Positions 1 to 24,908 of a DNA stretch of 64,000 nt are shown one piece after another (position 1 is the stretch's first letter; each line of letters opens with the position of its first letter). The notes beneath the pieces were generated by a model that did not search any database, was not told the DNA's origin, and saw only the letters and a list, made by a program, of their open reading frames with translations. Source of the DNA: Ascidia mentula. Lineage: Eukaryota > Chordata > Ascidiacea > Phlebobranchia > Ascidiidae. A program made the translations under genes and the position numbers. The stretch covers positions 6,515,001 through 6,579,000 of the forward strand of contig OX387204.1 in the NCBI GenBank assembly GCA_947561715.1. The letters run 5' to 3'.

Positions 1-663
1 CTTAACCAAATGGCGCTTCACGGCAATGGCGGGAAGCAGCGCGGTTCGGGTCACGAGGCTAAATAGACCCTAAGCTACTGAATCTCTCTACTATCTTCCA
101 AATCTATTCTTTTATTTACTAAAGACTTTTGTTAGTGAATGCTTATTATTAGAAGAAACGATTAACAGTAATTGGGGCAAACTTGTCTTTTTTTATTTCG
201 CTTACGCAATCAAATTCCTGCGCGCGGATGAATATTGCGCGAAGAGCAAAAAGGAAGTACGCCGCCGGTCAGCTGACTGCAAAAAGAGAGAAAAAACAAA
301 TAACATTACGTCATCGTAGTAACAGCTGTGAGAATTGTGCACGCGCGATCACACACTCTCAGTTTTGTCTAGCCATGCCGAGACTAGTTTCCTCGCCTTC
401 GAGCTTCATTGACTGCGCCGGGAGGAAATTTCGCCTCACTTTTTTGCCGAAATATCACTCTGGTGAAGATCCAAAGCTACACAAAAATTTTCGGAATTTC
501 GCAAGCGCCTCGAGGCAATTTTAGTGCATAGTTTTTTTGAAAGAGTTTATCTTTTTGTTTTATTGAACCGCGTCTTTCGTTTGCGTTGTGACTACCTCAC
601 AATAAATGTACAACATGAAACATTACGAACATTCTCATTTAAAATTGGTAGGGTGTATATTTG
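1..663. other. intergenic, no gene recognised
   Basis: This stretch lies beyond the 3' end of the minus-strand methyltransferase gene. It contains short open frames, but none resembles a known protein and none is flanked by convincing splice sites. The stretch from about 220 to 460 has many CG dinucleotides (for example near 221-245), which could belong to a promoter of a gene to the left. That is only a guess. Confidence 0.5.
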
Positions 664-3600
664 TTATTCAAGAAGAAGAGTGAGCAAATGCGAAACGACT
701 TTTACGCTTAAACTATTGCCAAGAAGTTTGTACTTTTGCACGTTTGTCATTTCCTCTGGAAAACGAAATTGACTAGGAAATCCCATTAGATTAGCAATTT
801 CTCTTGGTGAGAAATACCGCAAATGGGTTTCGCCGTTGTCAAGAGTCTGTTTTAAAACCGATCCCGTTCCTTCTACGTATTTTCCGTAGGATTTGGTAAA
901 GCACATCGAAACATCCGAATCTCCATCGACTAAGTCCATAACGGGCATGTAGCGATCGACAATATGCTGTGGAAGTTTCAATGTTTCGTTTGTGGACTTT
1001 TCAAGATATGACTCAATCTTTATGTGGGATGGATTTGCAAATCTGCAAACAACACAAAAGTTAAAAACTAATTAACCAAAAAAATATTTAAACAAGCATA
1101 CCCGTCACCATTTAGCCGGTCAACACGGTTTATATCAGTAGCGGGCAAATAATCAAGTATAGTTGCCTGGTTGTGCCAGGATTGACTCCAAGACTTAGGC
1201 CTTAATTTTGCAAGCATGTAGTACCTGAAAACAAATATATGTAGGTGTGTTTTATATTTAATACAGAAAAGTTTGGAACATATTTAGCAAAGCAACACAT
1301 ACATAGAACAGGGGTCACCAAGCTTTTTTCCAAACAATGTAAGTGTGAGTAGACATAGGCGCCCAGTTTATATTTTTGTTCATATTTCCAGGGGACTACA
1401 AAATTGTAATTTTTGTTAGTACGACGTCATCAAGTAACGCAAAACTGTCTTACATTGCATGACGTGTTCTAGTTGCGAAGCTACAAAATAAATTAAACTA
1501 CACAAGCTAACTTATCTGAAACTAGGTCAACATTTTTGTGTGCGTCGTGCAAAGAATCAGCGCATCACATTTTGTGCAATATAATTATTTCCAAACAAAC
1601 ACAATTACCGAAATCTAGTTCGGAGAACCTGTGCGGTTTCTGCGAATGTTAAGAGTCCAACCGGGCGTTTGGCTATTAGGTGTCGAAATTTCTGTCGGTG
1701 ACCCGTAACGTTTATTAACATTTTCTCGTAAGACCCAGATAAAAAAAAGTGTTTGTACTGTTCTTAGGTCCATGGTTTAATTGTTACGCGTTGAAAGCTT
1801 GAAGGTGGGTTGGAGATTAGGCAGATTAGTCTTCAAAGTTACGAATGCGACGTGATTTCGGACAGACGTGCGTATTAGCCTACTTAAACTTTTAGGAGAA
1901 AACCTGGGAGGGGGACAGCCCCCCAAGGAGTATACGCCTATGTAAGTAGTGACGATCAAGGGACAAATAACGGTTAAAGAAAAAATAATTTTTACCAAAA
2001 TGGTTTCCTTGTACAGAGAATTTAAAAGCAACAATACTTAAATTTAGTCTCAAAAAAGCTGGATTCAAACAAAATTGACCACAATATGGTGATACACAGA
2101 AAATAAAATGAGATAATATTTGGCAGTTGGTGTTTTTTTATTTTGAATTTTTTTTGGGGGGGTTCAAGTTTGGCAAACCAGGTGCACAAGGCTGTGGTTT
2201 GGTGACCCCTCACATAAATGATAAAAACAGTACCTTAATCTTGCATTTGGAATGCCCAAGTTTTTCGGACTAACAAGAAACCCTTGCCATGAATATTGCA
2301 AATTTTCTAGGGTTTCCACAAATATTTCATGGGTTTTTGAACTTTCGAAACCTTTGACATTTTCCAGCAAAATGTAGTCTGGTGGCTTTTTCATTTGGAT
2401 GAAGACTTTTAGTAGATGCAAAAATGACCTAGAAAAAATTATATGTTTTAATGATCCATATAACAAGAAAAATAAAACAAAATACCAAACATTTTAAATG
2501 CTTGTCTTTTTTTTTCTTTGTGACAACATTTTTGCATTGTTTTGTACAAAAGACTATAATGTAAATGAACTACATGCAAAAGAGAGAATGGCATGGATAC
2601 CAATAAAACCCTAGAGGTTATAAGTCACGATTGAAGAGATGAAACTACTGTTTCACTACAAACAGACAAGCAACAACCTGCCTGACTAATTTAGAGCATT
2701 AACATGACAAAATAGTTTAGAAAATTAAATTAATTGCAAATATTCAGTTTATAAAAGTTACTCGGTTCTAGGATCAAGTGTGTCTTTCTTGAGTCCAATG
2801 CGGGTGAATGGCTGACAAGGTGGGCTCATCATCACAAGATTGATGTTAAGTTTCTCAAGTTCAGCAGCCCTGTTGAACCATATGCCTTGTTATACTATAA
2901 ACATTAAAAAAACCTTTAACTTGGTTGGTAAATGTATTATGTATGTGACAAAAACATCCATATATAGGCATGCAAACAGAACCACATATATTTTCCCTAA
3001 TACTTGCTTGAAACCTTGAATGTTTTTCTGCCAGTATGTTGTAGAAGGAAAGTTTAGATTGTAAACAGTTTTTGCCTTTGGGTTAATGTCCACCGAAGCA
3101 GCAACGTTGTACGACACATCAGCATCCTGAAGTGCATAATGCATGCCCCCAATCCCAGCAAACACACAACGTAGTTTCGACGTTCGCAACGTCGCTGGAA
3201 AGTCGAAAATTGGTTGCATACCAGGTAATTTTCAAACTAAACGTCGTATGAAAGTTGGTAACACCGACGTTAGTAATGAACGTTGACTTCACCAAAAAAG
3301 TACGTAATAAATAACGTAATTAAAACGTTCACTATATACGTTAGATAAAAACCTGAATGCAACTATTTATGTACGTAAATTTTAACGTAACTGGGACGTA
3401 ACTTCGATACGTTTTATAAAACCCCAAATCGACCATATTTGCACGTAATTATTGACGTAACCCAGACGTTGATTTGAAACGTTTAATACAACCCGAACGC
3501 GACTACAATGGCACGTCAATGTTAACGTAAGAAAGACGTTGATTTGATACGTTTCGATACAACCCGAACGCGACTACAATTGCACGTCAATGTTAACGTA

Positions 3601-6600
3601 AGAAAGATGTTGATTTGATACGTTTCGATGCAACCCGAATGCGACCACAATTGCACGTCAATGTTAACGTAAGAAAGACGTTGATTTGATACGTTTCGAT
3701 ACAACCCGAAAGCGACCACAATTGCACGTCAATGTTAACGTAAGAAAGACGTTGATTTGATACGTTTCGATACAACCCGAATGCGACAACAATTGCATGT
3801 CAATGTTAACGTAGGAAAGATGTTAATTTGATACGTTTCGATACAACCCGAATGCGACCACAATTGCACGTCAATGTTAACGTAAGAAAGACGTTTTTGT
3901 TTTCGGAAAGTCCTAGTTCCTGTATTCTTACGTTCCGTAAAACGTAGAGAAGATGTTAATTTGATATATTAAAAAAAATGTAATTGTGAGCATTTTAGCA
4001 GGATATTATTATTGACAAGATAGGCCAGATAAGAGTGTTGTAAAATATCGTTAATATTTGAGGCGAAGTGGGCTAGACATTGTTATTAACACGCTTTTGA
4101 TTCATCATTCAGAAAGTTAAATTACAAACAAACTATCTGGGTTAAGAACAAAAATCATTTTCGCATTCGCTTTAAACTCTTGGCGCGTTATCCCCCGTTG
4201 ATGCAGCCATTAAATCTTGGCCGCAAACGTTTCACATGGGAAAAAGGTTTTATCAGTCAAAATCTGACAATTGTTTACGCTTCAGATATTCCTTTGCTCA
4301 ACGTCGACCGACTCCCTTCGCGTCAATTCTAGTGCAATAGGAAACTTTTCAGGATTGGATTTCTAAATTTGCTTTATTTGAAATCAAACAAACACCTAAA
4401 ATACGGACTTTCCCATTACAGAGAGCGATTACATTCAAAATGAGAGTGAAAGTCCAGAATTCGTTTTGCACATAGGTTTTTACAGTTCAACTCAAATAGC
4501 GTGTACTAATAATGTGCAAAATTTGATTTCGATTGAAGTTGAAACAAACGAATGAGAGACTGACAACTTGTTTGAAGACAAGGCACGACCGTCGCGCTCG
4601 GCTTTTGACTGGCCCATTGAAATGCTTAACCGTTTCGCTCTTGAAAGCCATTCCAATCAAAAGAAAGCGGTTTTTGCAGTTCAACTCAAAACAGAGTGTT
4701 CTAATAATGTGCAAAATTTGATTTCGATTGAAGTTGAAACAAACGAATGGGGGACTGACAACTTGTTTGAAGACAAGGCACGACCGGCGCGCTTTGCTAA
4801 TGACTGGCCCATTGAAATGCTTAACCGTTTCGCTATTGAAAGCCATTCCAATTAAAAGAAAGCGGTTTTTGCAGTTCAACTCAAAATAGAGTGTACTAAT
4901 AATGTGCAAAATTTGATTTCGATTGAAGTTGAAACAAACGAATGGGGGACTGACAACTTGTTTAAAGACAAGGCACGACCGTCGCGCTCGGCTATTGACT
5001 GGCCCATTGAAATGCTTAACCGTTTCGCTCTTGAAAGCCATTCCAATTAAAAGAAAGCGGTTTTTGCAGTTCAACTCAAAACAGAGTGTTCTAATAATGT
5101 GCAAAATTTGATTTCGATTGAAGTTAAAACAAACGAATGGGAGACTGACAACTTGTTTGAAGACAAGGCACGACCGGCGCGCTTTGCTAATGACTGGCCC
5201 ATTGAAATGCTTAACCGTTTCGCTCTTGAAAGCCATTCCAATTAAAAGAAAGCGGTTTTTGCAGTTCAACTCAAAATAGAGTATTCTAATAATGTGCAAA
5301 ATTTGATTTCGATTGAGGTTGAAACAAACGAATGGGAGACTGACAACTTGTTTGAAGACAAGGCACGACCGGCGCGCTTTGCTAATGACCGACCCATTGA
5401 AATGCTCAACCGTTTCGCTCTTGAAAGCCATTCCAATTAAAAGAAAGCGGTTTTTGCAGTTCAACTCAAAATAGAGTGTACTAATAATGTGCAAAATTTG
5501 ATTTCGATTGAAGTTGAAACAAACGAATGGGGGACTGACAACTTGTTTGAAGACAAGGCACGACCGTCGCGCTCGGCTATTGACTGGCCCATTGAAATGC
5601 TTAAACCGTTTCGCTCTTGAAAGCCATTCCAATTAAAAGAAAGCGGTTTTTGCAGTTTAACTCAAAATAGAGTGTTCTAATAATGTGCAAAATTTGATTT
5701 TGATTGAAGTTGAAACAAACGAATGGGGGACTGACAATTTGTTTGAAGACAAGGCACGACCGTCGCGGTCGGCTATTGACTGCGCATGTAGCAATGCTTA
5801 GTCGTTTCGATCTTAAAAGCCATTTAACAAAAAAGCGGTTTTTGTAATTCAACTCAAAACAGAGTGTTGTAATACTGTGCATAATTTTGCATCGCAGGAT
5901 AGTGAAGGACAAGTCTTTCCAAAATTGTAAAAGAAAACGTAAACGTGATGGAAAGGCCTTTGTGTGGTTTTATAGATGCTTCTAAACATCTGTTTTTAGG
6001 AAATGGGGCAAGGTCAGTTGTTTTTAGAGTGATGATTTGCAAATATTAACATCATACGCGCAGTATTTGTCCCGTACACAGTTCGACAAATTCTACATCC
6101 CTTTGACACACACACACTGTGATTAATTGGGACTGTCCACCGACCTCGCTGTAGTTCGTCCTTTATGGATTTGCCACAGCGTGTGGTCACAGTTCGGCAA
6201 GTCAACGCACCGCATACCTCACATGTTCGTAAAAGAAAATTTGGCGCTATCTGGCCTTGCCGCGGCTTGTGGGAGAGAAGCCGGTTGGCGGGAAAGTTTT
6301 TCAAAGTACCGTTGGATTCCTCTCGGGAGGGATATATTATTGGTATTGGCTGCGTGTCAAATCAAACTTATGGGTATTCTCCAGTCTTTTGACATGTCAG
6401 AAACAGAAATAGCATCAGATGATATTATAGTATTATACTATGATAGCAAACCCTTACAACATATATTTTGTTTGGTTCTATTTACCAAATGTTGTGTTTG
6501 TTGTTGGCCTTTAATGTACTTGGATTGTTTTGCAGCTTAATCGTTTGTAAATGGCTTTGGTGTGAAATTATTTGTTTGTTAAGTTCAAAAGTTCCATGAG

Positions 6601-8104
6601 AATCATTTTGAAAAGCAGGACAAGGAACCTACAGAAAGTGAAGGTAATTTAACTTTATCGTTGTATTGTATATATTGCTATTTTTCATATTTCAAGTGCA
6701 GTTACGTTGGTTCCAAAATTATCAAAGACATGTGTTTTAAATCTTACACCAAAACCTGATTTTCAGATATTCTATTTTCTCGGCGGTACTTCTGGGAATG
6801 TGGAAAAAAACAAAACACCCACAGGACAAATGAATAAGTAGGTGCTGGTTTTGTCTGGAAACCATAATAATGAACTTGTAGCGGATTGTTTAAATCAACT
6901 ATAGGGTGTTAAATTATAATTATAGAGTATACAAATCTTTTTTCCAGATAATGCTTGCTATGCGTATAACACATTATGTCCCGGTACTGCGGTACATGTC
7001 ACGGCTTGTTTAATGCACTTTAAAGTTAAATTTCCATTTTTACAGGAGCTTGCCGAAAAACTACATTCTGCTCCCAAGAAATCAAAAGGAAGTGGGTTGT
7101 TTTTTTTAAGCATGCACCGAGAAGGCAATGCGGAGAGAAAGGCAATGTGGCGACTTTTAAAGGGTATGTTTTTGTGTAAATTTTAAAACTGTGTCTTAGT
7201 GTGTGACACTGCTGTATAAAACTTTAATTATATTGATTGGTGATATTCTTGCTTTGTTTTTGCAGTACCCCTATTTCAGCAGCGGATTATACGACACCAC
7301 TGTCTTCATATTGACGGATTTAGCATAGTATTGTTGTGCTGGGATTATTTTAATAAATTATTTTATGTTGACAAACTGCAGGTGGTGCTTATTGTGCAGG
7401 CGTTGGTAAGATAAATCAAAAATTATTAATTAACAAAATCTAAATTTTTTGAAAGGTATATCTGGCGTTGAAAGGAACGTTTCAAAATCGTCAGATCGTT
7501 GTCAGATTAGACGTTAATTGCAACGTTAGCCCAACGTTCCGAAACTATGGCTAAACAACGTCACAGTAGTCAATGTTTTTACGTTGAAGAAACATTCGCG
7601 TAAACGTTTTATAGACGAATCCTGTGACGTAAAATGTAACGTAAAACAAATGTCCTTTCGCGACGTAAACAGCTACGTCAGGAAAACATCGTTTCGAGTC
7701 GACATTTCTACGTAAACATAACGTTGTTACGAATGTCCAGCCAACGTTGGTTTTGAACGTTACTGTACAGAACGTCATTTCTACGTATGTGGTTGACGTT
7801 TTCAAAAACGTTTTTGAGACGCAGTTTCGAGTCGACAGTATTACGTAAAAGTAATGTTATAACGAATGTCCAGCCAACGTTGGTTTTGAACGTTACTGTA
7901 AAGAACGTCATTTCTACGTATGTGGTTGACGTTTTTGAAAACGTTTTGAAGACGTAGTTTCGAGTCGACAGATTTACGTAAAAAGAACATTCCGACACTA
8001 CGTAGATTAGACCAAAACGCAACCCGAAATCTACGTAGAAATTACGTCAAATTGTTTGCTGGGATGCCACTGTATAACTCCAATACTCGTATTTCTTCTT
8101 CCAT
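664..8104 (-). CDS. TRDMT1: tRNA (cytosine-5) methyltransferase, TRDMT1/DNMT2 family, split by a transposon
   Basis: TRDMT1 enzymes methylate C38 of tRNA-Asp and relatives using S-adenosylmethionine. Minus-strand pieces: 8104-8066 (start, MEEEIRVLELYSG), 3153 to about 3015, about 2885-2762, 2428-2234, 1224-1102 and 1042-664 (stop). Conserved blocks in order: motif I (YSG before the insertion, GIGGMHYAL after it), MMSPPCQPFTRIG with the catalytic Cys, LLENVKGF, the GIPNARLRYY block, the CFTKSYGKYVEGTGS target-recognition strand and LLGNSLSVKVV near the C-terminus. All have direct counterparts in animal TRDMT1 and the size is near the usual 330-390 residues. The later junctions are clean GT-AG sites in matching phase; the junction after NIQG is less certain (donor near 3014 or 3003). 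The 3154-8063 element breaks the first exon between YSG and GIGG. A reading frame entering from the element (ATG at 3219) gives VFAGIGGMHYAL. Family call is firm; whether this copy works is open. Confidence 0.9.
1309..2211. mobile_element. non-autonomous hAT-like DNA transposon in a TRDMT1 intron
   Basis: The left end begins CAGGGGTCACCAA and the right end reads TTGGTGACCCCT, giving inverted ends of about 12 bp of the form common in hAT elements of the Charlie group. The 8 bases before the left end (acatagaa) and those after the right end (acataaat) match at six of eight positions, fitting an old 8-bp target duplication. No transposase frame is visible in the roughly 900 bp between them. The element lies in the intron between exons ending at 2234 and starting at 1224, so it need not affect the protein. 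Confidence 0.65.
3420..3900. repeat. 71-bp tandem repeat in the left arm of the transposon
   Basis: About six to seven head-to-tail copies are spaced 71 bp apart; the word GAYGTTGATTTGA recurs at 3464, 3535, 3606 and 3677, followed by copies drifting in sequence. Each unit carries several ACGT cores (ACGTTGATTTG, TACGTTTCG, GCACGTCAATG, TAACGTAAG). Short open frames on the minus strand here are by-products of the repetition, not genes. Confidence 0.9.
4478..5870. repeat. 195-bp tandem satellite inside the transposon
   Basis: About seven copies with a 195-bp period; the word TTTTTGCAGTTCAACTC or a close variant starts at 4671, 4866, 5061, 5256, 5451 and about 5647, with diverged partial copies at both edges. 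Unit variants alternate (GTCGCGCTCGGC versus GGCGCGCTTTGC), which suggests two-unit amplification steps. Because 195 is 65 x 3, any stop-free frame stays open through the array, and a minus-strand frame of 381 codons at 4487-5632 is repetitive for that reason. I do not call it a gene. Confidence 0.93.
6121..7430. other. single-copy core of the transposon, unassigned
   Basis: Between the satellite and the right ACGT-rich arm lies about 1.3 kb of non-repetitive DNA. At 6120-6310 it is CG-rich and contains TTTGGCGC (6240-6247) and TTGGCGGGAA (6285-6294), both close to E2F consensus. A minus-strand frame at 6304-6014 is cysteine-rich but matches no family I know. Two stretches look exon-like (from about 7047 and 7267, each preceded by a pyrimidine-rich acceptor), yet no protein could be assembled with confidence. 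It may be captured host promoter DNA or a decayed transposase gene. Confidence 0.4.
7730..7990. repeat. about 140-bp tandem duplication in the right arm of the transposon
   Basis: The block starting CGAATGTCCAGCCAACGTTGG occurs near 7730 and again near 7870, so roughly two copies at a 140-bp spacing. Like the left arm it is dense in AACGT and ACGTT words. The unit differs from the 71-bp left-arm unit; what the arms share is the dense, regular placement of the palindromic ACGT core. Confidence 0.8.
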
Positions 8105-9067
8105 TATTCTGTGAAAAAAGTATTGCTGGCCCAAAACACAAAATCATTACATTAAATAAACTCTAATCTTGAGACATAACTGATTTTATTGTTGTCAATT
8201 TTATCAATAAGACAGAGTGTTGTCACGTGTTTGTAACAAAGCGACGCAATGCACAAAATAGGTATTTTCCCTGAACACAAGGATCAGTTTGTTTCTGAGT
8301 TGAAAGCATCAAGTTTATTCTATAGTATTTCCATAAAATAAACGGACACAATCTAACTTTGGTCAAAAATACATCAATTACAAATGCCAAATGATTAAGG
8401 AGAAAAAAACAGGCAATACATCAAAGTACACGGTTTTTAATAAATTTAGAATAACTCAATTTTGCAATTATTTCAATAGTTTTAATGTTTTAATAATACT
8501 TTAAGTGTTTGAACATCGTATTATGCCGAATTTATGCTATAAAGTTTTTGAAAATAATTTTGTTAGTTCTAGTCTGATTTCTATTTTAAATGTGAAGGTT
8601 GGTCAGTTCTGCTTGCTGAGCTTGTGATGATGCGTTGCGTTCCGTGCCAAATTTTGCTCTGGGCTAGTTTAAACAAACTTGTTTTGCTCAACAGCCTTAT
8701 TAGTATCTAAATTATTTTGACGAGCAAATGATAAAAACTATTTATAATATACTGCAATATTTTAATGTGAATAAGAGTGTTTGTAAAATGCACTGCTTTC
8801 ATTTATGACGTTGTGTAATGGGTTGGCATGCCATGCAGACTCTTTGGAATGTTCAGGAAAATCCCCTTAAACTCAAAGATTGCATCATTGTTTGTGATAT
8901 GTTGACATACAAAATTAACCATTATTTCATTTAGTGCAGTATTTTATTGAATGATTTTAATAAAGTACAGTCATTGTTGTTTTTAGTTTATTCATATTTA
9001 CTCCCCTAAAAAGGTTTTATGTTTCATCTGTGGAATGTCCACAGCTGCCAACCTATCAGGCTAGTTC
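8105..9067. promoter_or_regulatory. shared upstream region between divergent TRDMT1 and USP12/46 genes
   Basis: The two genes start head-to-head, 963 bp apart. The sequence is AT-rich and no gene was seen inside it. On the minus strand a strong acceptor (CTTTTTTCACAG, AG at 8110-8109) lies 4 bases before the TRDMT1 start codon. On the plus strand CCAACCTATCAG lies a few bases before the deubiquitinase start. Both could be spliced-leader or 5'-UTR intron acceptors. No clear TATA box was assigned. Confidence 0.5.
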
Positions 9068-12000
9068 ATGAAGGGGTGTTTGCCTAATATTATGGTGAGT
9101 GTTTGTTTAGTACTTTTGTTTTTTTTTAAAAATGCTTTATAATGTCGTTAATGCAGGGAGCAAATGCTTCAGCGGCACTCATGAAAGAAATCGGCCCAGA
9201 ACAGTTTCCTCCCAACGAAAGATATTTTGGATTGCACAATGTAAGAAATTATTAATTGATTTTATGAATGATTGTCTGATTTTTGTATATAATAATGTTT
9301 GGTAAAGGAGTTACCCAAACACATCTTACTTTAATGATTAAATTCAATCTCTGTAACTGGTCAATTGGATATATGTGCCGATAAAAGGTTCTCTTTTTTG
9401 AAATAAAATTCTCTTTAGTGATAAATTTTTAACCGAAAGGTCCGTATTGAAATTTCAAAGGAGGGGCACTGTGAATGTTTTACTTGTAGACTGATACTTT
9501 TGTTTATTCCATTTTGTACTTGAAACAATATAGAGTACCTAATAACTACATTACATTTTTCAGTTTGGCAACACCTGCTACTGCAATTCAGTCTTGCAGG
9601 CACTCTTTTTTTGTCAACCTTTTCGCAACAAGGTACTTCAGTACCGCACACAGCACAATGGCAAGCATGTTGGAAATGGAAAGAAGGACACCTTGCTTGC
9701 CTGTCTTTGTGAATTGTTTTACAGTATCACAAGTCAGAAGAAAAAATGCGGTGTGTTGCAACCCAAGAAGTTTGTAGCACGCTTGAGAAAAGAATATGGT
9801 AAGTTGCAAAAGTGTGTTTTTTTCTATGTTGTCGACAAATTTTCTTTTAAATTATTACTTTTATGTGTATTGTTGCTCTGTGTTTTACACCGTACATATT
9901 TGTTCAATTAATATAAAATCAACAAACCATGTGTAGCAGCATGTAAATTATAAATAGCCCATGGCCATAGGCATCTTTTGCACTATTTGTTTCAAGAGAT
10001 CCTTTATTAAGTGTAATAAATGTATGCAATTCTGATATGATTTGTCAGTGTAATGTTAAAGACAGCATGTTAGTTAGCTTATTGAATACTGGCAATATCA
10101 AGTGGACTGAAATGTTGAGTGTGCTGTTGAAACTGCTTTGCCCTTGTTTTGTTGACAAAATTATTTGTCAAACGATCATCAAAAATATGTTGTCTGTCAG
10201 AGTCCTTCGACAACTACATGCAACATGATGCTCATGAGTTGTTCAACTGCCTTCTTAATTCCATCCACCTTGTGCTGGTTGAGGAAAAGAAAGCAGAGCG
10301 GGAGCGAAGGCGCCTGGAAATGCAAACTGCCACTTTGAGCCCTAGCAATGGAATTAAACGAGAGCGACTCAGCTTTTTCCGATCAAGAAAGGACAAGGAT
10401 AGTCACACATTGTCCTCCAAAGTGGGTGGAAGCACATTTGTGTCACCTGACACTGTGCCAAGCACTTCAGCAGACCCAAGTACGATGGATCTGCAAAACA
10501 TCACCAATGCTGGCTCTACGTCTTCAGTTGCTACATCAGACTCTCCTGCTTCAACAACAGACACAAATGAAATGCCAGTCGGCAACGGCCAAGTTCCGAA
10601 AGTGGAAACAGAGAGTAGTGACGATGGCAAAGTACAGAATGGACACATGAGCTCAGAGGAAACTTCAACACCCAGCAAGTTCAGCTTTTTTTCTCGCAGT
10701 AAATTTTCAAAAAAGGCTGCCTCCAGTTCCAAGTCTTCAGAATTGTCATCGACCAACTCCACAATGCCCCATTTGGAGGAGGAGGATGAAAGTGAAGATA
10801 ATGACACTTGGATAAATGACATCTTCCAAGGAACATACACAACCATAACCCGATGCTTAACTTGCGAAACGGTAATTGTACTGTACCTGTACTTATTGCC
10901 TGGTGTAAAGTTAATGAAGTAGTGGGTTGCTAGCACCTCATTCTATCATTTTGGGGCAACTTGTTTTAATGTCACCACTGTTTATATTTGGTCAAATTAC
11001 TAAATGATATATTGAACCACTTTATGTCTGTACATCTTGCTTCAACGCAAAGTATTTTTTCAGGTGAAAAATAAGGATGAAGATTTTCTTGACCTGTCTG
11101 TTGATATCGAACAAAATACATCTATTACCCACTGTTTAAGGTAAGCTCTTAATAAAAATGTAAATACAACATATAATTCTAAATTGTTTAATTAAATGTG
11201 ATAGTAAACCTAAGCTCCCATCCCAAATACTTTCTAGTATTTGTGATGCGAAATATTTTATTTCACAATGTTAAGTAACCTCATAGTTTTTTTTCCATAT
11301 CATTCAAACATCTTTTATTTCACAATCCGTAATACTATAAAACAAGAACTTGTTTGGGATTATATTTTTGTGGTAAACCTCTCGAACGAACCAGCTGTTT
11401 TTTTGTTTCTAGAGTTTTCAGCAATCAGCAAATGCTCAGTGGCGAACACAAATATTCATGCGAAGTTTGTAGAAGCAAACAAGAGGCCCAGATACAGTAA
11501 GATTATCAAATTTTGTACATTTTCAATTCAATAGCAGACATTATATACTGGCAATTTTATTTAAATTTTGTGCCAATACATTTTAAAACTAGTTACCAAA
11601 CAACCCTCAATGCTATGTCAAAAAAGTCTTTCATTTATTTAATGTTTCAACACTGGGTGACCTCTGCATGTCGACATTGGTCTAAAAAATGAAACAATCA
11701 TGATTTCCATATTTGTCAAATGACGGGTGGTTTGGTCGTGATGATGGCAATGTCTTAAACTTCCTGTTGCAAGTCACAATCTGCATGTGTGGGACTGTGT
11801 TGTGAACTTGCATAGATGGAACCATATAATTATTTACAAATGACTGTTCCATTGTCAAATCCAATTTAATATATATTTGCCAAGTGATTGTTTAAATTTT
11901 AGAAGTAATTTAACGAGGCAACCAAATTCATATGTGTAATATTGTAAACAAAGTTGATACTTCAAACATATTGTTTGTAACTTGGCTTTTTCCATGCGTG

Positions 12001-12893
12001 TGGGTTTTACAATTTGTTTTTAACAAATTTTTGTGCAATTGAAACAGGTCAGCTTTGATCTGTATTGTATGAAAAATAAATATAGTTTTTTTCAACATGT
12101 TCTAGTAATACAATGCATTCAATTTGCAGGATGAGAATAAAGAAGTTGCCCAACATTCTCGCGCTCCACCTCAAGCGCTTCAAATACTGTGACACTCTGA
12201 ACAAGTACACCAAACTCACCTACAGGGTGGTCTTCCCTTTCGACCTCCGCTTGTTCAATACAACAGATGACGCCTCCGATGCTGAACGCCTGTACGACCT
12301 GATAGGCGTCGTCGTACACTGCGGATCGTAAGTTAAGGGTGTTTTTCCGATGAGGCCTAATAAGCTTTCCTCTCGCATCCAGTTGAATTGGTGTTATTAA
12401 GTGCGAGAGTGTTCTGAGCTCTTTGCGTGTTTTTTTGCAATTACCGATGCGTATTTTACGCTACCCACGTATGCTGAATTGCAAAATACTAAAATAGTCC
12501 CAATTTAAAATTGATTACCCTGTTGCCAGACAACAGCTATTAACGTACAGTGGTAAACACACCTGCGTATGCTCTAATGGTCCTTCAAACATTCTGCGGT
12601 TTCCTGGCAACAGCAGCAAACGTAAATGGCTTTCACTTTTTACCTTGCCTAAATTTAACTGTGAATTTAACCTTCCCTGTTGTCTTTACGCATTTAATTG
12701 CTTTTGCACTGTGTGCAGTGGACCGTACCGGGGTCACTACGTGTCAATCGTAAAGAGCCACGACATGTGGCTCCTCTTCGACGACGACAACGTGGAGAAA
12801 CTGGAGCCGAGTGGCATGGAAGATTTCTACGGCGTGACGGCGGACAAGAACTCCGAATCAGGATACATCCTCTTCTATCAGTCCCGAGAGTGA
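9068..12893 (+). CDS. USP46: ubiquitin carboxyl-terminal hydrolase, USP12/USP46 type
   Basis: A cysteine protease that removes ubiquitin from substrates, normally activated by WDR48/UAF1 (and WDR20). Exons: 9068-9094, 9157-9240, 9564-9798, 10201-10871, 11064-11140, 11413-11496, 12130-12327, 12719-12893; all junctions are GT-AG in matching phase, giving 516 residues. Catalytic Cys is about residue 42 in [14 protein letters not shown]; the second box is [16 protein letters not shown]; zinc-binding CLTCE (about 334-337) pairs with CEVC in exon 6; catalytic His is about 465 in [11 protein letters not shown], followed by [10 protein letters not shown]; the end [10 protein letters not shown] is the family's usual end. 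The start has an in-frame stop just upstream and [10 protein letters not shown] aligns with the family's CNMG. USP12 and USP46 are about 366-370 residues; the extra length is an insert at about 150-317, rich in Ser/Thr and ending in an acidic run. USP12 and USP46 cannot be told apart here; a pre-duplication orthologue is likely. Confidence 0.93.
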
Positions 12894-14197: not shown

Positions 14198-17100
14198 CTA
14201 GGGGAGTTCCCACGCGCGATGGGTATTACCCTTTTCCGTGGAAGTCGATGGTTCATTCAGTTTTTTTTTACTTGAATCTGGACGGGTAAGCAGTTTTGCG
14301 ATCAACTGGAAAAATTCGCTGATTGTCACGAAACTGATTCCCAGCCACAATCCGAGAAGTCCGCCGATGTCGCCTGCGTTTAAATAGATAACTAGCATCT
14401 TAAACAAGCTTAAAAAGGACAAGTAAATCAGTATGTGTTTTTGAGTGATGCAAACACATCTGCTTTGCGAATGCCTAAAACAAAAAACCTTTTCCATAAA
14501 ACGTCCACAAAACCCAAGTAGGAGTAATTCTACTTTGTAAAGGCGGAAACTGATGATCAAAATATTGCACTGACGCCGACCGCTTGTCACTCTTCTCTGA
14601 TCTTGTGGGCTTTTTGTGAAACGTTTTAATGGTGCATTCGCCTTTCAGAATATTTTGTGCCACACTGTATATAAGATCTGTACATTTTGGGCTATAGGCG
14701 TCATCATAACAGTAACATCAGTTTCCACCGACGTTCTGTTCTTTTTTTTGCTACGCTGTCGATCCGGTGATGTACTTACTGAGAAGACTGACTTCGTCGA
14801 TTGATTTTGATTGGGTGATTCGGCTGAAACTGAGCGAATCATAGAATATGTCCAACATCACGTGATTCTCTCTGTATCTTTGCAACTTCTTGAATCCTGG
14901 GTCGATTTCTTCTAGCGACAGGTTGTGGATCGACGTCACATCAGCTGCAACGAATCGTTAAAAGTCAATTTCCCAGATGATGAAAAACTCCCAAAAATAT
15001 GTTACGATAATCCCAATCTCAGCCACTACAATGTTTTACACCGTCTTGCGGTTTGTTTCCGTGGAATTTTGGTACCAGCCGAACTGACGGTGAAGTCAGT
15101 AAACGTATGATAGTCGGCCGACCACAGTGCTATGGTTAATGAAGTTCAAAAGTTATAAACACAGCAGGAAAGAAAGAAACACAACAATATGTCATGATTG
15201 CATTTCGCTTTCAGAATCAGCACCGTTAGCTTTTGACCAGGTTTTTGCGTTTACGCACCAGATGACAGAGCTGACAATAAGTTTCTTGGCGTTTCGAATT
15301 CAACTTACTTTCTTCGTGGTAACGGTTCGAGGCCAACGCCTCTCCGACCACCACGTTGGGGAATGTTGAATACGTCAGTGAGGGGTCATACGAGGTCGAA
15401 TGACACGGTTCGTTACACCCACACATGGAAATGGTAATTGTCGAAGAGAATGTTGCTGAAACAAACAACCCGTATAGTTTCGTTTTGCAGTCTTGCAAAG
15501 TGCTGGACATGTTAACAAAAAAAATACTCATAACGTATTTTTTATCATATCTGTTACACTGCAAAAACTACATTTCTAAAAGTTTTATCACAGTTTTGAC
15601 AGTCACCGATTATTCGTTATTTAAATTTCATTTACCTTCTGCATCGCCCGAGCAGTTGAGAATTTGATGTCCGTTGCATTCCGAAACGTGATTGTATTCG
15701 ACTGCCCAGTAAGGCCGACAACCACATTTTTCAATTACAAAGTCCACGCTAAAAAGTGAACTTCTGGTAATTCTGTTTCCAGCATAAACTGTTGATACTA
15801 TTTGTTAAAAGTGCTCGGCAAAACACAGATAAGTCAACAATAAAGGGACACATGTGCGTTTGCAATATTGAAATAATGGTTGTTAAATTTTCTGTGCTTT
15901 ACTGTTATTGTAAAACACAAATTCCTCAGATGAGTAAATTCACTTTGCCATTAACTCACCGACACTCCACCATGCATGCAGTGATTGTGTAGTGTTTGAA
16001 GTACTTCAGTTTCTTCGTGTCGGTAGTACACACGCCCCACGGTTTGTACATGAGTAGTCTCTGTAAACATTTATAAGCGTTACGAGATCTTTCTTGGTTC
16101 GGCAGAAACTTAATTCCATCTACTCCCCTTTTCGCGTCATAAATATTTAAACGTGCATCCAAACATAAAATCTGCCAAATGAACTTTGACAACAGGACGA
16201 ACCGGACAGGGTTATCTTTTTTGTGAGTTTCCAAACACTGCAAATGTTATTTCAAGGTGACGTAACGCTTTGTTAGTTTGACTGCAATTATCTGTTTGTG
16301 CCTCGGTTCTTAATTAAGTGTGTATGCTTTGAGTTTAGAGTGGGACGATCCTGCCAATCATGCCCCTACAAGGAACGTTACTGCTTTGGGTAGAAATTAT
16401 TAATTTTTCACGTATTTCTTAGCACAAGGTTACGACAGAGTGTGTAGCAAGACAAACGAATTTTGATGTATTTTCACAATATCGTAGAAGTTTTATGTCA
16501 ACTATGCACTCAGTGTGTTTTGATCAAAGCAAAATAAAGGCTCACCTCAACTTTCCGTATCACCATATGACCAGCATTACCACTGGGAACTGCGGAACCG
16601 AAATTTTCAACGTCGGCTGGCTCCCCATGATCGTGAATAAGCACTTTGATGCCAGCTTCCGCCGTTCCGTAATTGGGATGCGTGCTGTAGCCGAGCTAAA
16701 GACACAACATATTTTTTGTTAGATTCTTTCCGATATACTTCATTCCTCATGAAACTATCGACATGATTTTCAAAATATCATTTGAAATGTAAAAGAAATA
16801 TCACTTCAAAAATTGCGTCGCAGTCTTAAGTAGATTTTTTTCAAAAAAAATAGAATATTCTGTGAAAAAAAAGCGCAATGATTTCCAAAATTGGAGCTCA
16901 TCATACTCATTTTTGTGTGTTTTCATATTGGCTGTGTTTGCCTTCACCTGGTTTATGTCGAGATACATCATCAGACCGTGACCGCTGCCTGGTACGTTCT
17001 GGACAATCTTCTCTTCAGATGTGAAGGTGTAACACATGCCCATAGGCGTGAGATACTTTGTAAAATTCTGGTACAATAACAATGGAAGTCAGAAAAAAAC

Positions 17101-18778
17101 AAAAACATCTCCAACACATTTAAAACTTTCATTGAAACAGCAAAGAAACAATATCCAACATGGAGCAATGTCGTTTATGTAACAACTGTCAGATAAAATC
17201 GCATTGGACATCGAAAATTTCTTCAATTAGTCAGAACCGAGGCCAAAATTTGACATTGGCCTAAAATACACATATTTGGCGTTCAGCAGAAATAAAGAAA
17301 AAATTCGGCAATGTATTTTTCGAAGTCAAGTTTGTGAAGGTATTAACTATCTGTATAAGAAGGACTTTGTTAACTGTTTAAACTCGTTAATTCTTTTTAA
17401 CGTGGCCTGGAAATTTGGCCGTCGTCCCTGCCTTGTTTCCTTAATGGTAAATTCGACACTGATCGCAACTCTCCAAATGTACGTAGTAATAACATAATTT
17501 GGATTCACTTTCATAGAGCATGGTTGCTGATGAAACAAACAATGTTGCAGGCTGGAATCGTTTAGTTGCCAACCATGAGTATACGCCTCGTCGCTGAGCA
17601 AAAATTCCCCCTTTCCTTCTTTGCGGAGATTTTCGTAATAGTGTTCCACCGCGGTTTCCCACCAAGTGTCGTAAGTTCTAGCACCAAATAATGTATCCGT
17701 GTTGTGTTTTATTGTAATGGAAACATTCAACATTTGCCGTACGATCATGCTGGTGCCACGTACACGGAAAGCGTTTCGCTAACCTCTCTAACCTGTCACG
17801 GAAAGGCGAATTTGCCCTCGTTAGCGCGTCCACCGCCAGAAGCTCGTTCTCGTCTTCGATATTAAAGAATCTGTCACGTGACAATGATGTCACCAATGCA
17901 AAAAATGGAATAATCTTTACAGTGGTTAAGAGTTCCTATTTAAACATTGTGGGAATGTCGTTCAAAAATATTGAAACCGGTAAACCGACATGTTAGGAGT
18001 TAACCAGAAAGATACTAAGGACATGATCACTTTCTTTGGCTTCTTTTTAATTCGAAAATTCTTTGATTTGTACAACAAATTAAACATCAACTCATATAAA
18101 GTTTTCGAAATGGAATTAACTCAATTCATGTCGATAAAAGTTCCAGCAGTCACCATACCTATTCAAGTTACAGATGGTCACGGCAGGGAAATGCAGTTCA
18201 GAGCTGTATTCTTCGTGCAGCTCAGTGCTTGTACGAAACTCCAAGTAGTCCATGACTTTGGCAGTTAACTGCCAGGCCACCGTTCCCGCAAGGACGCACA
18301 GCAGAATTGTCCACGCGATTCTGCCAAACAACAAAAGTTGCAACTTTGGGGGAATGTCAGTGCGGGCCCATTTGTTGGTAAATCTTATAATATTTATGTT
18401 TTTTTTGCTGATTGGTCGCGGAGAGGCGGTGATTAATGGGGAAAAGTAGAACAAAAACCATAAAAGTGACGCAAAATTTGTATACCTAATTATTTAAGCA
18501 CCAAGTGGTATTTTGACACTAACGCAGCAGAGAATTGCTGAATGCATTTTTGCAACATTCAAATATAAAGAAGACATCGCACCATGAGTGAATATAACGT
18601 TTATTGTAACAGCTTCCGTAGTAATGTCATTTGGTGGAATCCGATACAAATAAGCGCCCCATCGTAACTTCCCCAACTACCTGTACACCACTTTCCGCTT
18701 TGGTTTAAACAATTGCTGGAGTCCATGGCATGTGGTTGTATCCGCAAACTCCCTGATTACTTCCATCGACGTCGCCAT
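14198..18778 (-). CDS. DEG/ENaC family, acid-sensing ion channel-like subunit (copy 1)
   Basis: A sodium channel subunit of the degenerin/ENaC/ASIC family, forming plasma-membrane trimers. Minus-strand exons: 18778-18681, 18320-18159, 17870-17793, 17677-17509, 17067-16948, 16695-16546, 16060-15960, 15748-15636, 15455-15309, 14944-14780, 14373-14198; total 492 residues with phases agreeing throughout. Visible: the cytoplasmic His-Gly gating motif (His18-Gly19 in TTTCHGL), TM1 in exon 2 followed by [11 protein letters not shown], a cysteine-rich ectodomain ([31 protein letters not shown]), and TM2 with [10 protein letters not shown], whose Gly-Ile-Ser (about 446-448) sits where ASICs have the Gly-Ala-Ser filter. 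It lies head-to-head with copy 2 and shares all internal intron positions with copies 2 and 3, but lacks their last intron: its tail runs from TM2 into [15 protein letters not shown] is the nearest type; ligand or proton gating cannot be read from sequence. Confidence 0.9.
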
Positions 18779-20529
18779 TTCGTTCGTATATAAACCTTAA
18801 CTCTATTGAGCTAAGCCTAACTCTGCCTTAGGTTAGGCCTATCGGACAATTAATTTGTGTAAGAAAAAAAAACATGCAAAACATAGAGTTGGTACTGGAA
18901 GGAAATCTTAAAAATATATCTTCTGTTTGCCGGGTTTTTATGCGACGTTGCCCACTGCGAACTTTCCTATGTCTGTCCAACTAAATGTATCGTAACTTAT
19001 ATTTCCACGCTTTATATGTTATGACTTTCAGCACAACACGAAACTGGGGCCGACCAGCTCCTCGTCTTGCCGTAAAAAGAGCGCGCAGTAACTTAAACTC
19101 CTTGACGGAGATAACGAAAGAAACAAACATGAAACTTAACACCTATGTTGTCGCCTGCAATAAGCACGGCTTGCATAACTTATGAGGGGCGACCTTTCAG
19201 TTTGTACACACCACACAGTCTAGATAAAAAGGCGAAATTGCCGATGCCCGAGTAATGATCTGTTTAGTACACACCGTTTGGTTGCAGTTGAATTTTGTTT
19301 GCATTATTCATGCTCGGAGCGCGACTATAAGCTTGACTTTGCGCTGATTGGTTTTTGGTCTGCGACGCGTGTCGAGGATAAATTAATAATGATCGAAAAA
19401 GAAAACCTTTTTGCTTGTAAACAAAGTCACGGGGTTATGGAAGTAATTGGTAACAACTACCATTGCCTTTTTCCTGTTTTTTTAAAACCCAGCAGTGCAC
19501 TGAATAAAGCCATCCAATCATCCAAATTCTACCGAATTGGGAGATTCGGCCATCCAGGCATTTCATACACCACCATTGACCTAAAGTAGGGGCCGGCAAC
19601 TTTTTGGAATACAAAGTGCCAGTTTTTTTCAAAATAATAATGACTCAGCCTAGCAATATATTTGATGTTTATTATGTTAACCCTTTGTCTCGCAAAACTC
19701 CATTACGTTGGTGGCCACCCCTTTTGGACAACTTCACATGCAATTGTTTTCAACAACCGTTGGGGGCAAAGGCAGATACACTCATCAAACGGGATTGTGC
19801 AGATAATGTTTTTTTTGCGCTTCACGTTTTGGGCTTAAAGCAATGGTGCTTGTTAATCATTTGTTCCACTTGCCCAAATACTGATCCCCGATCGTTTATT
19901 GTGCATTAGATCCTATAAACTTTGGCAAATTTTTACGTCAGTGCGGGAGGACACCCACGCTCCGTTTATAAATCTCAGTATTGGCAAAGGTTAAACTTGA
20001 TACAATCTTTTGTTTTGAGTGACCATTTGTAGCATAGTAACATGTTTGACTTTAGTATGTTATACATGTTGTTTTTTTTTGTGTGAACAATCGGTGTATA
20101 GGTAATACAAGGTAATTCCGTATAAGGAACTACGAAAAGGTTCCTTACGCTTTTTTACTATTAATGGGTTCTTAAGTGGACGTAACTCGTTTCTTTATTG
20201 TTTCTTTTCAATTGGCGATGCAACAACATTCCATAGCAATGCATTGCTTTAATAATTAAGCAACCGCTTTGTACTCTAACCAATCCTGTTTTTGACTAGA
20301 ATACTTTCAAATGCATAAAACATGTTTCGTTAACGTATAAATCTGCTCATTCACTATCAAGTATGAAATTCCGTTCCCCACAGTAGCAGTTGGGAGCCGC
20401 GCAAGATAGCCAGTAAAGTGAACAGGTCAAGTCTACATTGCTACAAATACAACGTATCAACATAAACTTATATCGCCGCCAGTCCAGTCGCTATTATAAG
20501 CTTTTTCGGCAGAGGTATTTTGGTTCAAA
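18779..20529. promoter_or_regulatory. divergent upstream region of channel copies 1 and 2
   Basis: 1.75 kb between two start codons that point away from each other, so it probably holds both promoters. A TATATA lies about 18 bases before the copy 1 ATG, too close to the ATG to be its TATA box unless the leader is tiny. Before copy 2, CTTTTTCGGCAG (AG ends at 20512) lies 17 bases ahead of the ATG and looks like a splice or spliced-leader acceptor. Near 19590 AGGGGCCGGCAAC resembles one end of a hAT element, but no partner end was found. Open frames here match nothing. Confidence 0.45.
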
Positions 20530-23500
20530 ATGTGGAAAAAAATTGTAGCGTCGATGAAGAACATCTTGGTTGACTTTTCGAGTAAGACGACTTGTCACGG
20601 CTTGTCACAGATCCTCGAACCTGGTCGAAAACTCGTTTCCAGGTAAATGCAACTTGGTTTGTTGAATATTGTGTTACAATTTAGCACAAAAGCAAACACT
20701 TTTCATCTGAAAATAATTGCACATCGCTTGCGTTAAGCTGCCAAAGAACCCTTAAAAATACATGTAAGAAACATTTAAAACAGCATCATGTACGGTAAGA
20801 TACAGCCAGCTAAATAAATATATGAGACTACCGCCGTACACATAATAAATTACCAAATTTAAACATTATTTGCAATTGTAGGGTGATTTGGACATTATTG
20901 GTTATTGGTCTTGTTAGTGGAGTCTCTTGGCAACTAAGTTTGGCCGTAATTGAATACGCGAAGTTCGGGACGACCACCGACCTCACTGAGGAATACCGAT
21001 CAGAACTCGCCTTTCCCGCCGTTACCATATGCAACATCAACCGGTAAATCTAGCTGTTTGGTAATTGACAGGCCAGCAAAGTACCGAGATTCAAATTTTA
21101 TCCAGCCTGTCAATTTTCTTCGTTGTGTTTATTAAAAATCTCTGTGAATTTCCAGTTTTTTTGACGTTAAGAACGAAGAAGAATTGGGCACTATCGACGC
21201 TCTAATAAGGGCATCATCTCCCTATAGAAACAAGTAAGTTTATTTTGTGTACTTTCTTACTCAAAAAGCACAACAAGTTTAATGTGTTTTTTTTCGAAAG
21301 TTTGACCCGCTACCGTAACGTTTTGCAGAGTTTACGATGACTGGTGGGCCACCAAAGTGAAGAACTACGTATCCGAACTCAAATCGCACGGAACCAAACG
21401 CTTTCTTCTCAGCGACGAGACTTTCTCGAAGGGGTGGCTGCTGAACGACACCACGCTGCGGCATTGTACTTTCCAACAGAAGCCTTGCTCTATTAGAGTA
21501 CAAAATATTTGCATATAATATTGTTTAAGCAGTATTTCCTTGCGAGGTTCGAAACATACGGTCATTCAGACTGCTCAGTAAATTTTTCAGAAAATTATAT
21601 TTAACTTGAAAAGACATCATCAGGTTCTAGACATCACAAATTGTTCACCTTTGTTTCTAACCTTGCATGGAAACACTTCTTGTGATACGGCACACAATCC
21701 AAAGTCTGCCAAGATTCCATGGTACTGTAGTAGATAGAGCTCAGTTTTCTATTATATTTTATTACATTTATGAGACCTGATAGGTCGAAAAAGTTTCCAC
21801 CATTGTCTGCAGCTGACTTATTACAATTTATTTTGTACAACTATTGTAAGTAAAATTTGCTATTACGAGGTTATACATTGCCCATATCAACCATCTCGTG
21901 ATATTACAAAAATCAGCATCTGTGAGAAACCCCTAAAACCTTCAGTGTGCAATTTAGAATTTCACAAGGATCTTGACACCGATGGGATTGTGCTACACTT
22001 TCACCTCGAGCGAAGAAATTGTACAAAGTGTGCCAGGGGGAGGTCATGGTCTCAGCGTCTACCTCGACATTGCGCAGGTTTTTTTCAAACTTTTGAAAAT
22101 ATGCTGGCAGCATGGCTACAATAGAACAATGTTGAATTTATTTTCCTATGCTTTGCCTATGTCTCAGCCCTCTTTGACGAAGAATTAGTATTATGCAACC
22201 ATAACTTTATTATACTTTTGTCGGAAAGTATATAATTATTACAGCTTAGATGCATTCTTTAGCAAAATTATTTCACTTTCAGCGATTTAATTAAAACGTT
22301 TAGAGTTTGAACGTACAGAAATGCTGCATATTCTATTGTTGCCATTCGCATCGCATCATCTCAGTAAGCTGTCTTTTATTTACAGACGAAATACACAGAA
22401 CACCCCGAGTACGGGCACCCGGACGCCGGGGTCAAAGTTCACATTCACAACCACAATGAACCACCAGAGGTTGAAAATTTCGGCCTCACAATCCCCAGTG
22501 CCCATGCAGGACATATGGTCGTCAAGAAGATGGAGGTAATTTGTAAATATTTTTGTTTCTTGACAAAAAATTAATCGCGCTTTCGTCAACAGCGCAATCT
22601 GATGTACAAGCCGTGGGGAATTTGCGACCCGAACGACAAGAAGTTAAAGTACCACGATCATTACAGTACATCAGCATGCATGCGCGAGTGCAGGTATCAC
22701 ACTTTTATAACTGCCGGACATGGTCCTATAGGTCCTATACTTTTTCATGAAACATATTTTTTTTGTTTTCAACGAATAAATGTCAGTGCATTGATTCGCG
22801 GTCCGCCCGCTTGGTACTTTCCAAGCACAAACGTTGTCGAACCATGATTTATGCATTGTAAGTTGTTCTCGTCAAAGGCAAGATTATGTGTTGCACAAAA
22901 GCGAGTCCGCTTTTATAGAAGAGTTGTTTAATTATTAAGCAATGCACTACTGTTCCAATGGTGATTTCGGAAAGAAATTCTTTACAAAAACGGTCTCCAA
23001 GTTAACCTCCTAAACAAAACCCTCCTAAAAAATCTTGCAGAGATTGTTGCATCAAAATTCAATTCTATTCAATAAGTACTTCGCAAATTAATGTAAGATT
23101 GGAACATTTCTTTGACACTTGCAGGTCTACGCATATGATTAAGGAATGCGGATGTCGTCCTTACTGGGCACTGGAGATCTACGATGCTGAGGAATGTGAC
23201 GCGCTACAGATATTGGAATGCGCTGGAAGAGCCGAAGGTTTTCCATTATTTTTCCAACAAACTTTACTTTTTTATTCGGCTCCGATCGAAATGTTAAATC
23301 CGAATGGAAGTACAAACCAACTAAATCCCAGAACAAAAAATCAAAATCATTTTGTTGTTGCCAGCGACTTTCTCGTCGAGCTACACTTTGCAAACTTGTG
23401 GTTGCAACGAACCGTGCAAGTTCACCGTGTACGACACCAAGATGAGCTACTCGACTTTCCCAAGCCTGGAAGTTGGCGTTGCCTTTTCCACGCACCCAAA

Positions 23501-24908
23501 CTACGACGAAAGTGAGTCCCTTTTCGCGAACAGAATGCTCACTCACAGTGTGTGGCAGCGTCTCACTACTGATCATTAATCCCCAGTTGTGTGAAATACA
23601 GCTAAACTAAATTGGTTAAAACACAAAAATTTTGATATTTTATTAATCTGTTCTTCTGGTAAATATACTATCCTTCTTCCTCCCTGAGGAAGCCTAGTGT
23701 ACAGCAGGTGAAACGTCGCTCTATAAAAGCTACGTTTAATTGTGGCGGAAGGACAAAATATTAAAATATAATCTGCCCCACAGCAATAGCCACATAAAAT
23801 TTTTGATAATTTCTAGTCCGCGAGTCAAAAGGAATGTCCACCCCTGTTTCATAAACACCCCGCGGTCAAAACATTACAGCGAGTATATGCTGTGACACAG
23901 TTTTTTTGCTTTTGGTCCAAGCAAGGCTGTTTCTTACAATACCAAACACTTGTGATAATTTTGTGTACTTTTTGGAACAGCGCAAGCAGTGATAACGAGT
24001 GATGAGATTGACATCGATTCAATAAAACTACGTAAATACCGCGAGGATCACTTGATGGTGGATGTCTTCTACGATTCGCTGAGCTACCAACGGACTACTC
24101 AGTCAAAACGAGTCAGCGAGATCAGTTTAATGAGTAAGAATTTAAATATACACATTTCACACAAATGTTTTCCTGTATATTGTAATGTTATGTAATTTCA
24201 TGATATAGGGTCAACCTAAGGCGAACTTTTCTTTCAAAAACCAATTATGCTAATGTTTTGAAAAAATTAAACATCAGTTTCCCAGCTTCAGGCTCCGAAC
24301 ATAATGACTACATCTTTAATGTTAAATATTTTAGGTGACATCGGCGGTCTTCTTGGTCTCTGGCTTGGTATAAGTTTCGTTACCCTGAGTGAGTTCGTGC
24401 AATTGGTCGTTCAAATGGTGGGCGAATGGTGGAAGATTAAGACCATAGTTGTTCCCGTGGTGCGTATATATTGTAATAGTTATGTGGCCGACCGTGATAC
24501 CACGGATCAAAATATTGGTTCCCATGTGTAAGAAAAGCTTTCCCAAGCACTGGACCGAGAACTCTATACGATAAACCAGTCTTTCTTAACTGTTTCCTTG
24601 TCGGCACCCCATTGAAATCAACAATTTCGCATCTGTGATTTAGATGACAACGCAGGATATGTCTACAGAAAAAAATCTTTTCCCGTTTCTGAATATAAAT
24701 CATGTTTGCATTTGGACAAAATTCCGTTTTCTTTTTATTTTAGTTGACACGCTGGCGAAGCAAATCCATCAGGACATCGAAACCCCAGGAAAGAAATACC
24801 ATGTTTGGTGGCATCCCGCAAGGTTTTGCAAGGAGTGGGGCCACCAGGCGACCAGTCTTGGTGCAACCGCGCAGAGAGGATCCTGTGTTTGTGATACCGA
24901 TTGATTGA
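20530..24908 (+). CDS. DEG/ENaC family, acid-sensing ion channel-like subunit (copy 2)
   Basis: Second channel subunit of the cluster. Exons: 20530-20642, 20882-21043, 21156-21233, 21329-21497, 21958-22077, 22386-22535, 22593-22693, 23125-23237, 23365-23511, 23981-24133, 24335-24459, 24744-24908; 531 residues, all phases agree. Features in order: His23-Gly24 in KTTCHGL, TM1 at about 38-58, [11 protein letters not shown], ectodomain blocks [47 protein letters not shown] and [14 protein letters not shown], then GDIGG-type pre-TM2 and TM2 with Gly447-Ile-Ser. The last exon encodes a basic cytoplasmic tail (LTRWRSKS ... FVIPID). Compared with copy 3 it has eight more residues at the N-terminus and eight fewer in the tail. 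Introns 1 and 2 are short; no nested genes were seen. The nearest family is ASIC/BASIC; subtype not assignable. Confidence 0.92.
23684..23717 (+). other. hammerhead-like core sequence in an intron (tentative)
   Basis: CTGAGGA at 23684-23690 and GAAAC at 23710-23714 are separated by a segment that can pair GCCT with AGGT, and GTC follows at 23715-23717. These are the conserved core words and cleavage triplet of small hammerhead ribozymes, which are known in Penelope-like retroelements. Stem III would have to be nearly absent, stem I was not established and no element was found around it, so this may be a decayed retroelement end or chance. Confidence 0.2.

Follow-up and report, generated by a model that had tools for sequence, protein, structure and literature searches.

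Cytosine-5 (C5) methyltransferases such as M.HhaI carry a motif I of the form FAGxGG. Closest to the gene treated here is TRDMT1 (DNMT2), the tRNA-Asp C38 methyltransferase represented by PDB structures 1g55, 9hgm, 4h0n and 6fdf, whose CFT signature next to motif IX is described as a Dnmt2-specific mark (PMC3227630). Introners from other eukaryotes form a second point of reference (PMC9860276): some bring their own 3′ splice site and obtain the 5′ one from the duplicated target, others borrow sites from the neighbouring exon, and one adds codons. Here we describe a TRDMT1 locus of Ascidia mentula (assembly GCA_947561715.1, contig OX387204.1, positions 6,515,001 to 6,579,000 of the forward strand, 64,000 nucleotides, hereafter the window) in which a transposon with terminal inverted repeats (TIRs) occupies the first coding exon. 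The mitochondrial cox1 of this genome has AGA/AGG at conserved glycine positions (18 AGR codons over an open stretch of 539 codons), as in the ascidian mitochondrial code, which fits a tunicate. Once the element is omitted, the locus is like the described DNMT2 enzymes in alignment and motifs; unlike theirs, its S-adenosylmethionine (SAM) motif I is cut by a 4.9-kb transposon.

With a probability of roughly three in four, we consider this young TIR transposon in exon 1 to constitute a loss-of-function allele of TRDMT1, probably one that is still segregating. The locus would then be a tunicate example of a conserved tRNA methyltransferase disrupted in nature, probably not long ago, and would offer a natural knockout.

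A transposon within the first coding exon of TRDMT1

The features of the gene and of the element, in window coordinates, are as follows.

661-1042, minus strand: last exon of TRDMT1, with the CFT signature, the GNS motif and the stop
1102-1224, minus strand: TRDMT1 exon
2234-2428, minus strand: TRDMT1 exon carrying the ENV motif
2762-2885, minus strand: TRDMT1 exon carrying motif IV, PPCQP
3015-3153, minus strand: TRDMT1 host coding sequence past the element (IGGMHYALQ...NIQG), with donor AAG/GTTTCA, from the alignment to PDB DNMT2
3152-3153, no strand: target-site duplication AT, left copy
3154-3163, plus strand: left TIR, CCCAGCAAAC, whose outward reading on the minus strand encodes FAG in one frame
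3154-8063, no strand: TIR DNA transposon copy of 4,910 bp, with internal 71-bp and 195-bp tandem arrays and no recognised transposase
8054-8063, plus strand: right TIR, GTTTGCTGGG
8064-8065, no strand: target-site duplication AT, right copy
8066-8104, minus strand: coding part of TRDMT1 exon 1, MEEEIRVLELYSG, broken off within SAM motif I

In the assembled gene SAM motif I is not intact but split as YSG/IGG, with the host frame picking up at 3153 downwards (ATT GGG GGC ATG, encoding IGGM). When the flanks are joined with one AT dropped, the result is MEEEIRVLELYSGIGGMHYAL, in which AGT GGC ATT GGG GGC restores YSGIGG; the motif is intact in this empty site only. The original prediction, in which exon sequence at 8104-8066 was followed by an element of about 4.9 kb and by host sequence from 3153, and in which a transposon split motif I of TRDMT1, is borne out in both respects.

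Together with the other exons, and across four GT-AG introns, the empty site yields an open DNMT2 protein of 332 amino acids. Two of these introns were given by the aligner and two were placed by sequence reading and then checked, other aligner introns being discarded. Residues 3-332 align to human DNMT2 (PDB 1g55) with an E value of 2.6e-86, and the phmmer score against this chain is 292.9 bits, whereas M.HhaI reaches 60 bits and no DNMT1 chain exceeds 25.4 bits; the query had N for E at one exon-junction residue. Motif I, PPCQP, ENV, CFT (at residue 254) and GNS are all present in the empty-site protein.

The boundaries of the element are corroborated by its relatives. Searches of the assembly (195.8 Mb, 79 contigs) at the DNA level returned 36 stretches matching the left end and 45 matching the right end, with the TRDMT1 copy included and some copies counted repeatedly, and a perfect 31-bp left end occurs at 16 places, this copy among them. 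We fetched 14 other places and found both ends by pattern in 13, which we refer to as the other complete copies; six further left-end and five right-end matches were left unpaired, and weaker matches lie outside the copy set. An exact 2-bp duplication flanks 12 of the 13 (with varied sequences: AA, TT, TG, TC, CT), the thirteenth having CC/CA, so the boundary at TRDMT1 is a real transposition boundary.

A search of the assembly with TRDMT1 from GIGG onward found no second TRDMT1 locus, and away from this site the right-end query has no match that extends past its position 274, which lies about 10 bases outside the element. We therefore rejected the idea that the locus is a pseudogene or haplotig of a second TRDMT1, since all five protein-query matches are its own exons. 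With a single TRDMT1 locus found in the assembly, there is no sign of another gene that could take over the function.

Age and likely effect of the insertion

The age of the insertion was judged from 12 copies compared over the right part of the element, two of them across a shorter stretch. Over this 1.9-kb part the TRDMT1 copy differs from its nearest sibling (C67_17.87) by 0.94%, and its private changes number 9 in 1,917 compared sites (0.47%). On these figures the insertion is very young. Ascidians have high diversity, and an insertion of such youth may well still be polymorphic.

The sequence shows that a TIR transposon with a 2-bp target duplication inserted into exon 1 and cut SAM motif I directly behind YSG. 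Transcripts begun at the native promoter would then continue into element sequence, and their translation would terminate behind MEEEIRVLELYSGIPANNLT, as read-through from the native start meets a stop after 20 codons. Given this stop, the haplotype most likely makes no working TRDMT1, and given the youth of the insertion, the allele is probably a segregating or otherwise tolerated loss of function rather than a remodelled gene. A null allele had been offered as an alternative in the original prediction and is now the best-supported reading. Oikopleura dioica is reported to be without Dnmt2 (PMC3227630), so loss of TRDMT1 in tunicates has precedent and is plausible.

Several observations weigh against a loss-of-function allele. 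The remaining TRDMT1 exons are intact and carry every motif searched, an in-frame GT-AG route across the element with a good acceptor exists, and loss of function is inferred from the DNA of one haplotype. The intact exons are uninformative, because a divergence of about 0.5% predicts about five substitutions per 1 kb of coding sequence.

Splicing, new starts and other alternatives

The alternatives that would leave an enzyme involve the following features.

8069-8070, minus strand: GT donor ACA/GTGGCA, the only enumerated GT donor in frame with 3194 that keeps FAGIGG
3195-3209, minus strand: candidate 3′ splice site TTTTCGACTTTCCAG inside the element; the exon would start at 3194
3154-3219, minus strand: element-encoded ATG and 22 codons, MQPIFDFPATLRTSKLRCVFAG, open into the host frame; a hypothetical new N-terminus

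The alternative that survives best, although we regard it as unlikely, is removal of the element as a GT-AG intron from GT 8070 to the acceptor before 3194. The product would read MEEEIRVLELY-TTLRTSKLRCVFAG-IGGMHYAL, with a motif I supplied by the transposon and some dozen extra residues. The enumeration covered GT and GC donors no more than 90 nt from the start and AG acceptors between 4200 and a point 30 nt beyond the element; four pairs proved in frame and free of stops, none of which restores the exact native sequence. GT 8070/AG 3194 and GC 8067/AG 3194 join exon 1 to ...CVFAGIGG, and GT 8086/AG 3126 and GC 8059/AG 3126 skip the host motif I. The original prediction had held that no GT-AG pair restores the frame; this is contradicted by the 8070/3194 and 8086/3126 pairs.

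Splice sites were scored with matrices built from 10 donors and 10 acceptors of the window, six of each from a USP46-like gene and four from TRDMT1; for the former, nine introns came from an aligner restricted to GT-AG, and three in a poorly conserved insertion were dropped. The acceptor at 3194, ACTTTCCAG/CGA, ranks at the 97.7th percentile among the AGs of the window, and each of the 13 other complete copies has it too. The donor scores -0.62, below all ten references (2.03 to 9.37, leave-one-out) and in the 45th percentile of all GT. On PF00145 the spliced product reaches 145.7 bits versus 149.6 for the native protein (both queries having N for E at one exon-junction residue), but its insert interrupts the native strand RVLELYSG. 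Introners with borrowed sites or added codons, described elsewhere (PMC9860276), make such a route possible in principle. The transposon family, in contrast, does not look intron-living: when the longest junction open reading frame (ORF) of each of the 13 other complete copies was compared with Pfam, one notable match appeared, THAP-type and below cut-off (22.9 versus 23.9 bits), in a comparison that domain-free exons would escape.

A somatic, private or misassembled insertion, lacking in most animals, is a slighter prospect. A single assembly and a single haplotype are in view, and young insertions are expected to be rare. Against an artefact stand the perfect terminal repeats and perfect duplication at both boundaries, as well as private substitutions and array lengths of its own that would be unexpected from a chimeric join. 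Private status is in any case compatible with a loss-of-function allele.

We consider it improbable that the transposon, having broken the enzyme, also rebuilt it, its terminal repeat encoding FAGIGG as the SAM motif I in a functional TRDMT1 that is spliced from 8070 to 3194 or started at 3219. If this were true, mobile DNA would have taken the place of a cofactor-binding loop in a single step; use of either the splice or the new start would mean that the end of a transposon provides a motif for cofactor binding. The sequence over the element edge does read FAGIGG, as had been proposed, but its FAG part is the transposon terminal repeat and is constant in the family, recurring in each of the 13 other complete copies, and is thus not tailored to TRDMT1. 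We accordingly rejected FAG as an adaptation to this gene. Insertions were simulated at 1,992 positions and orientations in TRDMT1 coding sequence; 332 of them produce an open frame that starts in the element and continues into the gene, and in-register FAGIGG arises once, at the actual site. The FAGIGG match was chosen post hoc and is a striking coincidence; that FAG landed on motif I is probably a coincidence of the insertion site.

Highly unlikely, in our estimation, is a message from an element promoter whose first used ATG is that at 3219, giving an enzyme that begins MQPIFDFPATLRTSKLRCVFAGIGG. As the original prediction had stated, the minus-strand frame from this ATG is open into the host, and it reads MQPIFDFPATLRTSKLRCVFAGIGGMHYAL. 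On PF00145 the element-started form scores 145.3 bits, versus 149.2 for the native protein, 141.4 for a start at YSG and 138.9 for a start at GIGG; being this near to native, FAG would be an acceptable motif I by the profile. With phmmer against human DNMT2, 292.9 bits for the native protein compare with 276.5 for the element-started form, the queries also differing at one residue. This form lacks the RVLEL strand that precedes motif I in DNMT2, L-R-C-V standing for V-L-E-L with no similar replacement. Moreover, a read-through message would present 57 other ATGs (in any frame) before 3219, and the ATG is shared by every one of the 13 other complete copies, 12 of which keep its frame open, which speaks against adaptation. 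The proposed enzyme with a new N-terminus from 3219 thus finds no positive support, and these upstream ATGs, the family-wide ATG and FAG and the lost RVLEL speak against it.

Precise removal of the element at the RNA level, through non-canonical splicing or in some other way, bringing back YSGIGG, has very little chance of being correct, as it would demand ends like AT...GG or CC...AT, the introns placed in TRDMT1 are GT-AG (those of the USP46-like gene too, though the aligner allowed GT-AG only), and nothing in this analysis carries the larvacean finding of non-canonical splicing over to this genome.

The transposon family and described systems

Some observations on the surroundings may be added. 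The USP46/USP12-like deubiquitinase gene lies at window 9142-12887, head to head with TRDMT1 with start codons about 1 kb apart, and has several GTAAG-type donors. At window 8109-8122 on the minus strand, TACTTTTTTCACAG ends four bases upstream of the TRDMT1 ATG (87th percentile of AG) and is possibly a 5′ untranslated region or spliced-leader acceptor. By eye, clustered ORFs at window 17000-30500 resemble exons of acid-sensing/ENaC-type ion channels.

As for the family itself, the lengths of the 71-bp and 195-bp arrays vary between copies. Six ORFs, three from the TRDMT1 copy and three from the longest relative, gave no Pfam match over cut-off, the best being a zinc-finger model at 17.1 bits (cut-off 22.7). 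The transposon was recently active and is apparently non-autonomous. The longest relative (L090, G000:C71:14699001-14706900) has about 3.7 kb of additional sequence in which several ORFs lie, the source of the three scanned, and one of these several ORFs resembles SAMD3-like proteins. Two of the longest relatives have additional segments, parts of which look by eye like nested retroelements. In another relative (L087, G000:C70:20472800-20481500) the copy splits the THAP-type ORF, and the joined flanks read WTRICSKQHF; a transposase-like ORF nearby suggests that this ORF belongs to another transposon.

With respect to described systems, the element resembles TIR cut-and-paste transposons in its short perfect terminal repeats, 2-bp duplications and dispersed near-identical copies, and differs in that no transposase was recognised in the three scanned ORFs of the TRDMT1 copy. 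ISL2EU elements (PHIS superfamily) are described with AT duplications and TIRs usually starting with GG (PMC4482050). The 2-bp target duplication, AT at TRDMT1, is shared with them, whereas the TIR here starts with CCC and the family also shows AA, TT, TG, TC and CT duplications; membership in ISL2EU was rejected on the varied duplications and the CCC start. One YqaJ match was found in the genome, on C71 at 14.0 Mb, outside the TRDMT1 copy.

In the literature on transposons, introns and splicing in ascidians and tunicates, no comparable case turned up in the portions available. Of the systems described elsewhere, C5 methyltransferases with FAGxGG are alike in that motif I here would read FAG-x-GG, and unlike in that FAG here is transposon terminal repeat, the expression of which is hypothetical. 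Introners share with this element the TIRs, a good 3′ splice site near the element end and an exon GT as potential donor; the 5-kb length, the very weak donor and the position of the other tested copies outside recognised host domains, the one THAP-type ORF apart, set the TRDMT1 insertion apart from them.

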